From assembly GCF_004297265.1 (NCBI RefSeq), contig NZ_SCUT01000003.1, forward strand, positions 124,001 to 188,000: a stretch of 64,000 nucleotides of DNA. Direction: 5' to 3'. Position numbers and translations under genes: made by a program. This DNA comes from Reyranella sp. (GTDB taxonomy: Bacteria > Pseudomonadota > Alphaproteobacteria > Reyranellales > Reyranellaceae). Of this stretch, positions 10,780-15,105 are shown piece after piece. The notes under the pieces are model-generated. The model saw only the letters and a list, made by a program, of their open reading frames with translations, did no database searches and was not told the DNA's origin. The first letter of the stretch is position 1. Every line of letters starts with the position of its first letter.

Positions 10780-10884
10780 GGGAGCCCCGCCCTCGTCTTC
10801 GCGCAGGCAGAGCGTAGAAACATCCGGCCGGCCGCAACACGGCCCATCTCCGCATATCCCATGGCTGTTGCAGGCGGGGGCTTT

Positions 10885-10905
10885 AATGTAAACTGGCTTA
10901 ACATG
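10885..10905. promoter_or_regulatory. Candidate TetR operator O1 over the tetR start
   Basis: A 21-bp imperfect dyad reads AATGTAAA, five bases, TTAACATG. It has the same layout and near-identical half-sites as the site at 11583-11603. The TetR start codon (10903) is its last three bases, so a bound repressor would block transcription or initiation of its own gene. Confidence 0.6.
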
Positions 10906-11541
10906 AGCTGGAAGCGCAACGACCGTGAGGAGCGGAAGTACCACCACGGCAGTCTGCGCGAGGCGCTGATCAAGGCCGCCCGCGAACTCATCAAGGAAAA
11001 GGGACCGGCAGGCTTCACCTTCGCCGATGCCGCGCGCTCCGCCGGCGTGAGCCCCGCCGCGCCGTACCGCCATTTCCGCGACCGCGACGCGCTGATGGCC
11101 GACGTGGCGCGCGAAGGTTTCGAGCGTTTCGCCGCGATGCTTTCGACCGGCTGGGCCAGCGGCAAGCCCGATCCGGTCACGGCCTTCCACAATATCGGAA
11201 GGGCCTATCTCAGCTTCGCGCGGTCCGAGCCCGCCTACTATGCCGCCATGTTCGAATCCGGCATCTCACCCGATTCCAACCCCGAATTGCGGGCCGCGTC
11301 GGAACGCGCCTTTGCCGTGCTGCGCGCCGCTGCCGACCAGCTCGTCGTCCTGCTCCCGGCCGCCGGGCGCCCGCCGGCACTGATGATGAGCCTGCACATC
11401 TGGTCGATGGCGCACGGCATCGCCTCCCTGTTCGGCCGCGGCGATTCCGGCCGCCGGCCGCTACCCATGTCGGCCGAGGAACTCCTCGAGTCGGAAGTGC
11501 TCATCTACATGCAGGGACTTGGTTTTCCCGCTTCGCGCTGA
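10903..11541 (+). CDS. TetR/AcrR family regulator (WHG-type C-terminus)
   Basis: The 212-residue protein has a TetR DNA-binding domain at about 12-60 (YHHGSLREALIKAARELI, then TFADAARSAGVSPAAPYRHF). The ligand-binding half (GRAYLSFARSEPAYYAAMF) resembles the WHG-type C-terminal domain. ATG 10903 gives a normal TetR N terminus, although no Shine-Dalgarno precedes it, and the message may be leaderless. The dyad at 10885-10905 overlaps its start and a second copy lies before the DUF2852 gene, so autoregulation plus control of that gene is likely. Confidence 0.9.
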   Translation: MSWKRNDREERKYHHGSLREALIKAARELIKEKGPAGFTFADAARSAGVSPAAPYRHFRDRDALMADVAREGFERFAAMLSTGWASGKPDPVTAFHNIGRAYLSFARSEPAYYAAMFESGISPDSNPELRAASERAFAVLRAAADQLVVLLPAAGRPPALMMSLHIWSMAHGIASLFGRGDSGRRPLPMSAEELLESEVLIYMQGLGFPASR

Positions 11542-11582
11542 AAGTTTTGCGCGAGCCCTTGACTCCCCGGGTCGCCGACCCC

Positions 11583-11617
11583 AATGTAAATGTCGTTAAC
11601 ATTCACATCGTTAACAT
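11583..11617. promoter_or_regulatory. Candidate TetR operator O2 upstream of DUF2852 gene
   Basis: Bases 11583-11603 form the dyad AATGTAAA, five bases, TTAACATT, with outer half-sites AATGT/ACATT exactly symmetric. An extra half-site TCGTTAACAT at 11608-11617 repeats bases 11593-11602. It matches the O1 site over the tetR start and lies 21-55 bases before the DUF2852 start codon, where a repressor would block RNA polymerase. Confidence 0.6.
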
Positions 11618-11637
11618 CAGCAAAAGGGGGCTCCCAA

Positions 11638-12060
11638 ATGGGCCTGATCGAAAAAATAGACGACCTCGGCAAGCCGGCGTGGATCGCGCTGATGGTGCTG
11701 AGCTTCATCCTGTTCTGGCCGGTCGGCCTGGCCCTTCTCATCTATCTCAAAGGGAGTGGACGCATGTTTTGCTCGAAGCGCTACGGTCACTGGAACATGC
11801 CGGACGGCCGCTCGTGCCGTGAGGAATTCCGCAGCTGGAAGCGCCGCTCCGGCTGGAGCCGCCGCAACAGCAGTGGCAACGTCGCCTTCGACGAATATCG
11901 CGAGGAGACACTGAACCGCCTCGACGAGGAGCAGCGCGAGTTCCGCGACTTCCTCGACAAGCTGCGCGCCGCCAAGGACCGCGCCGAGTTCGACCAGTTC
12001 ATGGCCGACCGCCGCAACCGCCCGGCGCCCGAGACCCCGCCGGCGCCCAGCGCAGCCTGA
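11638..12060 (+). CDS. DUF2852 family membrane protein
   Basis: The 140-residue protein has one transmembrane helix at about 14-37 (AWIALMVLSFILFWPVGLAL), an aromatic and basic juxtamembrane stretch with GRMFCSKRYGHW, then an Arg-rich linker. A charged, probably coiled-coil helix follows at about 82-128 (EETLNRLDEEQREFRDFLDK), with a Pro/Ala-rich tail. This layout matches the alphaproteobacterial DUF2852 family, whose function is unknown. ATG 11638 follows AAAAGGGGG. The gene lies directly after the TetR gene and behind a copy of its putative operator. Confidence 0.82.
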   Translation: MGLIEKIDDLGKPAWIALMVLSFILFWPVGLALLIYLKGSGRMFCSKRYGHWNMPDGRSCREEFRSWKRRSGWSRRNSSGNVAFDEYREETLNRLDEEQREFRDFLDKLRAAKDRAEFDQFMADRRNRPAPETPPAPSAA

Positions 12061-12090
12061 GACTTCCGGACAGGGCCTGTTCGACGAAGA

Positions 12091-12117
12091 CGCCCGCGGC
12101 TCGACCGCGGGCGTTTT
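12091..12117 (+). terminator. Rho-independent terminator after DUF2852 gene
   Basis: The inverted repeat CGCCCGCGG / CCGCGGGCG (9 bp, 5-base loop) is followed by TTTT, 30 bases after the DUF2852 stop. It also faces the convergent hypothetical gene that ends at 12121. Confidence 0.8.
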
Positions 12118-12120
12118 CCT

Positions 12121-12825
12121 TTAGTGATCGAGCTTCATCGGCAGGCGCTCTGCCTGCGCCCGCTCAGCCAGCTCCGTCAGGACCGCAAAGGCAAAGCGAG
12201 CGCGCTCTTCCACAGTTCCTTCCTCGGTCACAACCCGTCCCCACGCCGCCACATCGGCAGCCGAGGCCTTCCAGGTTGCGGCATTCAGGTCGGCGAGCTG
12301 GCGGCGCAGCGTCGTCACGGAGCCCATGACGACCCGCCGGCCCTCGACATCCTCGCCCTCGAAGGTGATCTCGAAGGCGACCGGCAGCCACATCTCCACG
12401 TTGCGGACCAGATGGGAATAGCGCGAGCGGAAGCCCGCCGTGGTCGACCGCGTCAGCGCGAGGTCGTGGTCCCATTCCTCCGGCAGGGTTTCAGGCAACC
12501 GCAAGGCCGGATGTTCGGCATAGGCCGCCCACAGGACGAGCGACCCGAATCCGTCCCAACCGGGGCGATGGGTGTACCAGGGCGCCGCCTGCGTCTCGTC
12601 CCAATCGAGCGGCGCGGAAAGACGATCGCCCAGCGCCTTCGCGAGTGCGGCGCGCCAGGCGAGCACCCGCGGACGGATACGATCCTGGCTCTTTCCCTCG
12701 TCGGTCGGCTTGGCTGACCGAACGCGATGCGGCGCGCCCCGCGCACGCGCTGCTTTCTCGACGATATTTTCCCAGGCACCGGCATAATATCGCGTAAGCG
12801 ACCCGACATAGACGTCGAGAGCCAT
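12121..12825 (-). CDS. Hypothetical protein, 234 aa
   Basis: The family was not recognised. The protein is soluble, with no signal peptide or transmembrane segment, and rich in Trp, Glu and Arg. It begins MALDVYVGSLTRYYAGAWEN and contains WDETQAAPWYTHRPGWDGFG and a helical C-terminal half. Normal GC-rich codon use and a defined stop beside a terminator support a real gene. The upstream 180-base gap is unusually AT-rich, suggesting its own promoter. It has no operon partners. Confidence 0.7.
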   Translation of the reverse strand: MALDVYVGSLTRYYAGAWENIVEKAARARGAPHRVRSAKPTDEGKSQDRIRPRVLAWRAALAKALGDRLSAPLDWDETQAAPWYTHRPGWDGFGSLVLWAAYAEHPALRLPETLPEEWDHDLALTRSTTAGFRSRYSHLVRNVEMWLPVAFEITFEGEDVEGRRVVMGSVTTLRRQLADLNAATWKASAADVAAWGRVVTEEGTVEERARFAFAVLTELAERAQAERLPMKLDH

Positions 12826-13008: not shown

Positions 13009-14001
13009 CTACTGAGGCTCGATGTTCAGGCCCTTCACCAGGTCGATCCAGATCGGCCCCTGCTCGGCCACGATCTTCTCGAAGAAGACGTGGTCGCGGG
13101 CGGCATTGTCGATGCCGAAGGTGGCGAGGATCTTCTGGATACGCTCGCTCTTGCCGCCCTCGACCATCATGTCCGAGAGCTTCTGCACGATCTCCTTGGG
13201 CATGCCTGCGGGGCCGACCAGGCCGATCCAGCCCTGAACCTGGAACGCCTTGTCGGTGACGCCCTGCTCGTAGAAGGTGGGGACGTCGGGAAGCTTCTTC
13301 ATGCGCTCCATGGTCGGCACGGCGATGGGCCGGCCGTTGCCCGACTGCAGCACGCCGGTGGCGGCGGCGACGCTGCCGCTGCCGCCCTGCACCGCCCCCG
13401 AGGCCACGTCCTGCCACATCGGCGCCTCGCCACGATAATGCACCGCTTCCATGCCGAGCTTGTAATGGCGGTTCAGCGCCTCGACGGCGACATGGCTGTA
13501 GGAGCCGGCGCCGTAGGTGCCGAGGCTGGTCTTGTTGGCGCGGGCATAGTCGGCGAGTTCCGCAAGGTTCTTCACCGGCAGCTTGCTGTTCACGATCAGG
13601 GGCAGGTGGCCGGCATCCATCCACGAGATCAGGACGAAGTCCTTGTCCGGATCGTAGGGCAGTTTCTTGAACAGCACCTTGTTCATGATCATGGTGGTCG
13701 AGATCGTCCACATCAGCGTGTAGCCGTCGGGCGCCGCCGACTTCACTTGCTCAGCCGCGATGGCGCCGCTGGCGCCGGTCTTGTTCTCGACCGACACCGG
13801 CTGGCCGGTCTTCTGCGAGATGTACTCGCCGTAAACGCGGGCAAAGGTGTCGGTGAGACCGCCCGCCGGATAACCGCAGACAATGCGGATGGGTTTGTTA
13901 GGCCAGGCTCCCTGGCCGATGGCAGGAGCCGGCAGTGCCGCTGCAACCGCAGTGGCAGAGCCATAACGCAGCACATCACGTCGCGACGCACGCACGATCA
14001 T
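13009..14001 (-). CDS. Bug/TctC-family periplasmic solute receptor (first copy)
   Basis: The 330-residue product starts with a Tat-like signal (RASRRDVLRYG, then a hydrophobic stretch to APAIGQ). The mature protein has family hallmarks: WPNKPIRIVCGYPAGGLTD near residues 33-51 and VENKTGASG near 71. Bug receptors bind carboxylates or other small organic solutes for tripartite tricarboxylate transporters, though many are orphans. No TctA/TctB membrane genes are in this window. It is the last gene of a CoA-transferase-Bug-Bug array and closely resembles the preceding copy, including the shared MKKLPDVPTFYEQG motif. Confidence 0.92.
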   Translation of the reverse strand: MIVRASRRDVLRYGSATAVAAALPAPAIGQGAWPNKPIRIVCGYPAGGLTDTFARVYGEYISQKTGQPVSVENKTGASGAIAAEQVKSAAPDGYTLMWTISTTMIMNKVLFKKLPYDPDKDFVLISWMDAGHLPLIVNSKLPVKNLAELADYARANKTSLGTYGAGSYSHVAVEALNRHYKLGMEAVHYRGEAPMWQDVASGAVQGGSGSVAAATGVLQSGNGRPIAVPTMERMKKLPDVPTFYEQGVTDKAFQVQGWIGLVGPAGMPKEIVQKLSDMMVEGGKSERIQKILATFGIDNAARDHVFFEKIVAEQGPIWIDLVKGLNIEPQ

Positions 14002-14081
14002 CGATTGCCTCCCTACGGCGCGATATTTTTATGACGGTCGGGGCCGTCTCGGGCACGCCTCGAAGAAGCATGGCCGCGATT

Positions 14082-14113
14082 TCGCACTGCGTAAAGCCCA
14101 CACCGCAGTGCGA
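14082..14113 (-). terminator. Intercistronic hairpin between Bug paralogues
   Basis: Arms 14082-14091 and 14104-14113 (TCGCACTGCG / CGCAGTGCGA) are perfectly complementary around a 12-base loop. The hairpin starts about 5 bases after the stop of the upstream Bug gene. It lacks a T-run and may stabilise or partly terminate the message between the two receptor genes. Confidence 0.5.
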
Positions 14114-14118
14114 TCAGC

Positions 14119-15105
14119 CTATTGAGGCTCGATTCCCAGGCTCCTGATCACCTCGAGCGAGACCGGGCCTTCCTCGTCGAGAACCTGGCGGAAGTAGGCT
14201 GCGTCTCGCGCGCCCTCGTCGATGGCAAAGGTGTCGTTGACCTTCTGGACACGATCGGTCTTGCCGGCCTCGACCATTAGGGCCGAGAGCTTCCGCACAA
14301 CCTCGGGCGGCGTGCCGGCGGGTGCCGCGCAGCCGACCCAGCCGCGGATCTGGAACGCCTTCTCGGTGAGGCCCTGCTCGTAGAAGGTCGGGACGTCGGG
14401 CAGCTTCTTCATCCGCACCATGGTCGGCACCGCAATCGGCTTCACGCTGCTCGCCTGCAGCACCGACGCGCCCGAAGCGTAGCTGCCGGTCGCACCCTGG
14501 GCGGCGCCCGAAGCAACGTCCTGCCACATCAGCGCCTCGCCGCGATAATGCACCGCCTCCATCCTGAGCCCGTAATGGCGGTTCAGCGTCTCGGTGACGA
14601 TGTGGGCGAAGGAGCCGATACCGTACGTGGCGAGCGAGACCTTCCTGTCCCGCGCCCAGGCCGCGAACTCGGCGACGTTCTTCACCGGGATGTCCTTGTT
14701 CACCATCGTCGGCAGGTGGCCGGTGTTGAACCAGGCGACCAGGGCGAAGTCCCTGTCGGGGTCGTAGGGCAGCTTCTTGAACAGCGCCTTGTTCTGCACC
14801 ATCGTCGTCGAATTGGTGAACATCAGCGTGTAGCCGTCGGGCGGCGACTGCTTGACGATCTCCGCGCCGATCGCACCGGCGGCGCCGGCCTTGTTCTCGA
14901 CGATCACTGGCTGGCCGGTCTTCTCGGCCACGTACTCGCCATAGGCGCGGGCGAAGATGTCGGTGAGGCCGCCCGCCGGATAGGTACAGACGATCTTGAT
15001 CGGTCTGGACGGCCAGGCCTGCGCGATGGCCGGCGCCGGCAGCGCCGCGAGCGCCGAGAGTGATCCGTAACGCAGCAGGTCACGCCGCGTCGTCCGCAAA
15101 ATCAT
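14119..15105 (-). CDS. Bug/TctC-family periplasmic solute receptor (second copy)
   Basis: The 328-residue product has a twin-arginine signal (RTTRRDLLRYGS, then LAALPAPAIAQA). It shares long stretches with the neighbouring receptor: YPAGGLTD, NRHYGLRMEAVHYRGEA and MKKLPDVPTFYEQG. The pair arose by tandem duplication. Differences in the mid-protein binding region (TYGIGSFAHIVTETL against TYGAGSYSHVAVEAL) suggest related but separate ligands. It lies 45 bases downstream of the CoA-transferase gene on the same strand, so the transported acid may be activated by that enzyme. Confidence 0.92.
   Translation of the reverse strand: MILRTTRRDLLRYGSLSALAALPAPAIAQAWPSRPIKIVCTYPAGGLTDIFARAYGEYVAEKTGQPVIVENKAGAAGAIGAEIVKQSPPDGYTLMFTNSTTMVQNKALFKKLPYDPDRDFALVAWFNTGHLPTMVNKDIPVKNVAEFAAWARDRKVSLATYGIGSFAHIVTETLNRHYGLRMEAVHYRGEALMWQDVASGAAQGATGSYASGASVLQASSVKPIAVPTMVRMKKLPDVPTFYEQGLTEKAFQIRGWVGCAAPAGTPPEVVRKLSALMVEAGKTDRVQKVNDTFAIDEGARDAAYFRQVLDEEGPVSLEVIRSLGIEPQ

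Follow-up and report, generated by a model that had tools for sequence, protein, structure and literature searches.

Genes and operators of the locus

The window, by which we mean the whole 64,000-nucleotide stretch of Reyranella sp. DNA that was analysed, carries on its forward strand a gene for a TetR-family regulator of 212 residues (tetR, 10903–11541) followed by a gene for a 140-residue DUF2852 (PF11014) protein (11638–12060). The tetR product has Pfam matches to TetR_N (PF00440), the N-terminal helix-turn-helix domain (44.7 bits, cut-off 24), and to TetR_C_33 (PF13305; 58.9 bits, cut-off 26.8). Its AlphaFold model (pLDDT 86.1, pTM 0.82) consists of helices only, as in a TetR fold with an all-helical C-terminal ligand domain, and its top PDB matches, both by fold and by profile, were TetR-type or untitled regulators. 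The closest solved structure was 3on2 (profile E 4.9e-24, 28–29% identity; TM 0.72–0.75 by query length and 0.80–0.81 by target length), a TetR-type protein of the actinobacterium Rhodococcus sp. RHA1 whose entry title gives no function. By analogy, control by a ligand, as the earlier note on this DNA had proposed, is expected of a TetR protein carrying a TetR_C_33 domain.

The DUF2852 match is full-length (residues 7–126 against positions 1–116 of the 116-position model; 143.7 bits, cut-off 22.5), and no second Pfam family scored above its cut-off in the four DUF2852 proteins that were run. PF11014 is a family without an assigned function and membership in it therefore explains nothing by itself; a profile search of the PDB gave as its top match only a homeobox protein, at E 0.073. 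The predicted structure, which is of modest confidence (pLDDT 69.3, pTM 0.28), has a membrane helix at approximately residues 11–39, a flexible stretch, a short helix (60–71) and a long helix (82–127), and so agrees, at that low pTM, with the single membrane helix and long C-terminal helix read earlier from the sequence. The best-conserved parts of the protein are the membrane segment with its SGRM end and the C-terminal helix with the motifs FDEYR and EFDQFM. Based on the positive-inside rule, the tail is predicted to be on the cytoplasmic side. Beyond the pair, on the reverse strand, there are a 234-residue frame with no Pfam family (12121–12825), which was found in six of 55 compared loci, all of them Reyranella-type, and two adjoining similar genes (13009–15105) which we take to encode tripartite-tricarboxylate (Bug/TctC) binding proteins.

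The earlier note had described two 21-bp dyads of the same form, one across the tetR start codon and one before the DUF2852 gene. Both are exact and lie where they were placed (AATGTAAACTGGCTTAACAT at 10885–10904 and AATGTAAATGTCGTTAACAT at 11583–11602); however, the site at DUF2852 proved to be a 25-bp double dyad and not a single one. The operator at tetR, O1 (10885–10905), contains a single 19-bp dyad, ATGTAAACTGGCTTAACAT (10886–10904), whose right arm extends into the tetR start codon by two bases. The operator at DUF2852, O2 (11584–11608), reads ATGTAAATGT-CGTTA-ACATTCACAT, that is, it has the form ATGTNAATGT-N5-ACATTNACAT and is in whole ATGTAAATGTCGTTAACATTCACAT, and it comprises two overlapping 19-bp dyads (11584–11602 and 11590–11608) offset by 6 bp. 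The extra half-site reported at 11608–11617 is present there as TCGTTAACAT. Candidate palindromic operators at both the regulator's own promoter and that of its target, as found here, are characteristic of the TetR family.

At up to three mismatches, the dyad pattern had four matches in the window (two places on both strands) versus an average of 0.05 over 100 dinucleotide-shuffled windows, and in the 6.0-Mb genome of this organism ATGTWAAN5TTWACAT occurred at 0 mismatches in these two places only. A third dyad-like site in the same genome, C3:41773 (L011 1501–1519), has two mismatches, which is at chance level as the reversed-pattern control gave four matches per strand. It is located between efflux-type genes and another tetR, judging from the sequence, and we assign it to a separate system outside the regulon.

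The likely -35 box of the DUF2852 promoter is TTGACT (11559–11564), read by eye and from the conservation of TTGAC described below, and O2 stands shortly 3' of it. Based on the spacing between TTGAC and the operator, the -10 box and transcription start of DUF2852 should fall at the left part of O2, a blocking position; this placement is drawn from the spacing and nothing else, since a consensus scan of 10780–12200 found no sigma-70-type promoter (0; shuffles 0.2). The DUF2852 gene has a Shine-Dalgarno-like AGGGGG (11625–11630) and is followed by a terminator-like hairpin with a 9-bp GC stem and TTTT (12091–12117, read by eye; scan site 12099–12112), one of two terminator-like sites in 10780–12200 versus 1.0 in shuffles. 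Because no promoter was found by the scan and the terminator-like sites are near the shuffle level, the transcription units are ones that we infer. No Shine-Dalgarno sequence is visible ahead of the tetR ATG, so the tetR mRNA is perhaps leaderless or near-leaderless.

Conservation of the operator in Alphaproteobacteria

The earlier note had proposed that the dyad be sought in DUF2852–tetR pairs of other Alphaproteobacteria and held that a lack of conservation would count against a shared operator. Instead, among the best 80 of 291 DUF2852 loci (L012–L091), TetR was present upstream of DUF2852 in 79, the remaining locus (L069) ending at a contig edge and being left out of the promoter counts, and all 79 readable promoters carried the 19-bp dyad at 0 mismatches. 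The tetR gene is cut by a contig end in four of the 79 loci (L029, L030, L038, and L062) and ends 640–700 bp before DUF2852 in five (L073, L083, L087, L089, and L090). In the same 79 promoters from the best 80 loci, the 25-bp double dyad had 0 mismatches in 65, 1 in 2, 2 in 11, and 3 in 1, and every one had TTGAC at most 40 bp upstream of the operator, the distance from the start of TTGAC to the operator being 25 bp in 58, 28 bp in 19, 27 bp in 1, and 19 bp in 1. At the other gene, the AT of the ATG forms the end of the dyad in 71 of 75 complete tetR starts at 0 mismatches and in all 75 at up to one (L012–L091; loci with an incomplete tetR start were left out). Of the 59 Reyranella-type loci (L012–L071), 52 have GTTAAC in the stretch from the operator to the start codon, compared with none of the 20 loci L072–L091; the extra half-site is a feature of the Reyranella-type lineage.

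Beyond these loci we used an even set of 385 alphaproteobacterial genomes, 33 of which had the double dyad at up to one mismatch, once each (reversed control 0). All but one of these 33 places adjoin DUF2852 (29 of 30 inspected loci, along with G338, G380, and G042). The match in L098 was taken as chance, based on the fact that neither gene is present, the region is AT-rich and there is one mismatch. TetR was found inside the locus in 28 of the 30 inspected loci and on another contig for L104 (G200). The DUF2852 gene itself was present in 61 of the 385 genomes. A search with the TetR query returned 50 genomes at E ≤ 1e-30, of which 47, at E ≤ 1.1e-35, all fall within the 61 with DUF2852, and the weaker matches (4.8e-32 to 2.0e-31) were in three genomes without it (G004, G081, and G182).

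The operator follows the regulator in these genomes. When the dyad was counted, allowing one mismatch, in the 250 bp upstream of DUF2852, it was present in all 46 readable TetR genomes, representing 24 families (45 at 0 mismatches and one at 1; G070, in which DUF2852 is at a contig end, was left out), and in only one of 14 genomes, from seven families, without a TetR orthologue. The one exception, G222, has a diverged TetR adjoining DUF2852. The difference gives a Fisher p of 2.7e-12, which overstates the certainty because related genomes are not independent; in mononucleotide-shuffled promoters the rate was 0.41%. Within the genus g183, a large genome (G380) has both TetR and operator and two small ones (G212 and G302) have neither, and in Rhizobium sp. 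NLR16a DUF2852 has no TetR within the 5.4-kb stretch and no dyad upstream. Since DUF2852 exists without TetR in 14 of 61 genomes, and in 13 of these 14 also without the operator, the job of the protein does not require TetR control.

The dyad at the tetR start is less general. It was found at up to one mismatch in 35 of the 47 TetR genomes (34 of 46 loci, plus G327) and is missing in 12, namely the four genomes of family f23, G189, G380, G137, G057, G205, G014, G283, and G070. Similarly, Paracoccus ferrooxidans has a linked pair with an exact double dyad at DUF2852 and no dyad at up to three mismatches at its tetR start. Autoregulation is therefore not universal. In Azospirillum thermophilum (L221 4954–8615), a glycosyltransferase gene and an NYN gene stand between tetR and DUF2852, and there is a 0-mismatch dyad at each of the pair. 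In two loci of family f117 (L181 and L182), a diverged DUF2852 is accompanied by a divergently oriented TetR that has itself diverged (33% identity). The dyads separating the two genes are modified, as in AAGTGAACAGCGCTCACAT, and this may be the same switch after drifting independently.

Unlinked regulators and the extent of the regulon

In family f23 the regulator and its putative target are not neighbors: tetR is 78 kb (G154), 441 kb (G022), and 592 kb (G331) away from DUF2852 in three genomes and on another contig in the fourth (G252). Each of the four DUF2852 promoters carries a pair of 0-mismatch dyads, 58–59 bp apart, which flank a TTGAA- or TTGCA-type box on both sides, and the tetR start regions have no dyad (best 3–4 mismatches). 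Pseudorhodobacter turbinis has a layout like that of f23, with one mismatch in the second dyad, its TetR and DUF2852 genes being approximately 465 kb apart on one plasmid. Its TetR shares 77% identity with the G022 protein, so f23 probably belongs to Rhodobacterales. The strongest evidence that TetR acts on the DUF2852 promoter is that the operator has been kept after the two genes became unlinked and is absent where the regulator is absent. One of the f23 genomes has a second, C-terminal-only DUF2852 match (G252:C1:249115–249276) approximately 0.4 kb 3' of the complete gene.

To what extent the operator occurs elsewhere can be judged from the 47 TetR genomes, in which the strict dyad ATGTRAAN5TTNACAT was found at 0 mismatches in 51 places in 36 genomes (reversed control 0), 49 of them at tetR or DUF2852. 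Strict dyads also stand immediately before a nitroreductase-family gene (G331:C1:2380754; L207 2001–2019) and an esterase-family gene (G252:C10:34401; L208 2001–2019); each was seen in one genome only and we do not claim either gene as a target. A looser dyad occurs in 3, 7, 5, and 7 places in the four f23 genomes, two of them in each genome being at DUF2852 (control 0–1). In three of the four it also stands 40, 42, and 42 bp before the gene for a protein that we call P0001 (L196 1501–1519, L201 1501–1519, and L212 2501–2519), and in the fourth there is no looser dyad near this gene. P0001 is a helix-rich protein of 360 residues that is orthologous across f23; two orthologues that were run had no Pfam family. 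A query with P0001 matched all four f23 genomes and none of the 36 other genomes tried, and relatives were found in records of Sinorhizobium, Rhizobium, Shinella, and Vibrio.

From the position of these looser dyads, it is possible that P0001 is a lineage-specific second target of TetR, and the regulon may thus not always be one of two genes. The view that regulator and membrane protein form a self-contained pair is thus almost correct, but in f23 a further gene may share the control.

Control of DUF2852 and its possible role

We conclude that the shared switch is very probably real, because it is conserved across many alphaproteobacterial families and is nearly always located only at tetR and DUF2852. 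Conservation of the operator, its absence without the regulator and its retention after unlinking all argue for the earlier proposal of a regulator and membrane-protein pair with a common operator. The explanation that we favor, and consider highly likely, is a dedicated repressor–target pair in which TetR would be released by a ligand and would usually repress its own gene, with tetR and DUF2852 as the core regulon. In the mechanism that we infer, a TetR dimer would bind the one dyad of O1 and so limit synthesis of the regulator itself, and two dimers, probably acting cooperatively as in QacR and CprB, would fill the double dyad of O2. Occupancy of O2, lying over the predicted -10 box and transcription start of DUF2852, would block RNA polymerase, and a small molecule bound to the TetR_C_33 domain would release the repressor, so that DUF2852, a small membrane protein that presumably spans the bilayer once and has a long helical tail, would be produced on demand.

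Such a mechanism is of a known kind, combining a TetR repressor, which usually has an operator of its own, with an operator at the target that resembles the dimer-of-dimers class. TetR-family autorepressors with a local membrane-protein target are exemplified by TetR/TetA and QacR/QacA, and the pair described here resembles them in the TetR fold, the palindromes at the target promoter, the palindromes at the regulator's own gene (in 35 of 47 genomes) and the target being a membrane protein. Unlike in those systems, the target is the single-span DUF2852 protein and not a multi-span transporter, and the two genes point in the same direction and have separate operators. Among dimer-of-dimers TetR operators are those of QacR (28 bp) and CprB (22 bp) (PMC4150764). 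The two offset dyads of O2, 25 bp in length and shifted by 6 bp, fall within the approximately 22–32 bp of this class, a likeness that we draw from the DNA sequence alone. In contrast to QacR and CprB, there is just one 19-bp dyad at the tetR gene here, and in f23 two dyads stand apart at a distance of 58–59 bp.

It is also conceivable that TetR represses itself but has an activating, or only a modulating, effect on DUF2852, since some TetR proteins are activators. One of the two f23 dyads is upstream of the -35-like box, and the position of O2 relative to the transcription start is deduced from spacing, the scan having returned no consensus promoter. However, in 77 of 79 loci (best 80 of 291) the operator begins 25 or 28 bp 3' of the start of TTGAC, which is a blocking position, and we consider activation improbable. 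More unlikely still, to the point that we give it very little weight, is that the dyad is bound by some other regulator with a wider range of targets, next to which TetR simply happens to lie. The half-site ATGTNA is simple, and the three to seven looser-dyad places per f23 genome, two in each at DUF2852, could be read in this way; against it are the near-exclusive location of the strict sites (49 of 51 at tetR or DUF2852) and the fact that the operator tracks the TetR orthologue even where the two do not adjoin.

What the DUF2852 protein does is a separate matter. The earlier note suggested an envelope-stress or scaffold role, in which case the ligand of TetR could be an envelope-derived or membrane-active compound; we regard this as a tentative idea that is rather doubtful as it stands. 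It is consistent with the predicted membrane helix and with the location of the pair beside ruv and ybgC in 13 loci, from Xanthobacter, Ancylobacter, Rhodoplanes, and their kin; tolQ and tolR are also nearby in 10 of the 13. These genes were sought by tblastn over loci L012–L191, many of which are only about 3 kb long, limiting the neighbors visible. In L078, for example, the neighbors by Pfam are ruvC, ruvA, ruvB, a 4HBT thioesterase, and MotA_ExbB and ExbD proteins. However, in a comparison of the neighbors in 55 loci (L001, L031, L042, L060, L072–L091, and L152–L182), tetR and DUF2852 alone recurred widely and many of the other clusters look like shadow frames, so we dropped conserved neighbors as a clue to function.

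Published data point in more than one direction. In Brucella suis, a DUF2852 protein was lower in a mutant of mapB (a TamB homologue), in keeping with an envelope role, but it was one of several proteins changed and is called periplasmic by the predictor used there (PMC6377625). The Bradyrhizobium diazoefficiens DUF2852 protein, bll7160, instead rises in microoxia, with a log2 fold change of 2.5 for the protein and a 2.1-fold change for the transcript, the latter reaching 4.9-fold in bacteroids; bll7160 is one of 71 that passed the laxer limit alone, and it is annotated as a target of neither NifA nor FixK2 (PMC6515984). Taken with the neighbors, which are circumstantial in the ruv/ybgC/tol loci and different elsewhere, the Brucella observation points only weakly to an envelope-stress or scaffold role. 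In the literature searched, no regulator of DUF2852 was found.

A broader scenario, which we put forward as speculation and think may well be wrong, is that the pair forms a sensor of ancient origin in Alphaproteobacteria, with in essence a single output. TetR would read a metabolite made by the cell, perhaps one linked to the membrane or to respiration, and would switch DUF2852 via the dimer-of-dimers operator, and the Rhodobacterales-type lineage would have rewired the system, with an unlinked regulator and two dyads bracketing the promoter, and gained the 360-residue protein as a second target. If this were true, DUF2852 would count as a previously undescribed effector in the membrane, serving a common stress. 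The operators also provide a clean case of operator evolution, being linked and double, unlinked and bracketing, or lost together with the regulator. A defined operator, its regulator and a regulon of nearly a single gene are together a direct handle on a protein family that has no assigned function: a fusion to the DUF2852 promoter would report the natural signal, and deletion of tetR should make DUF2852 expression constitutive.
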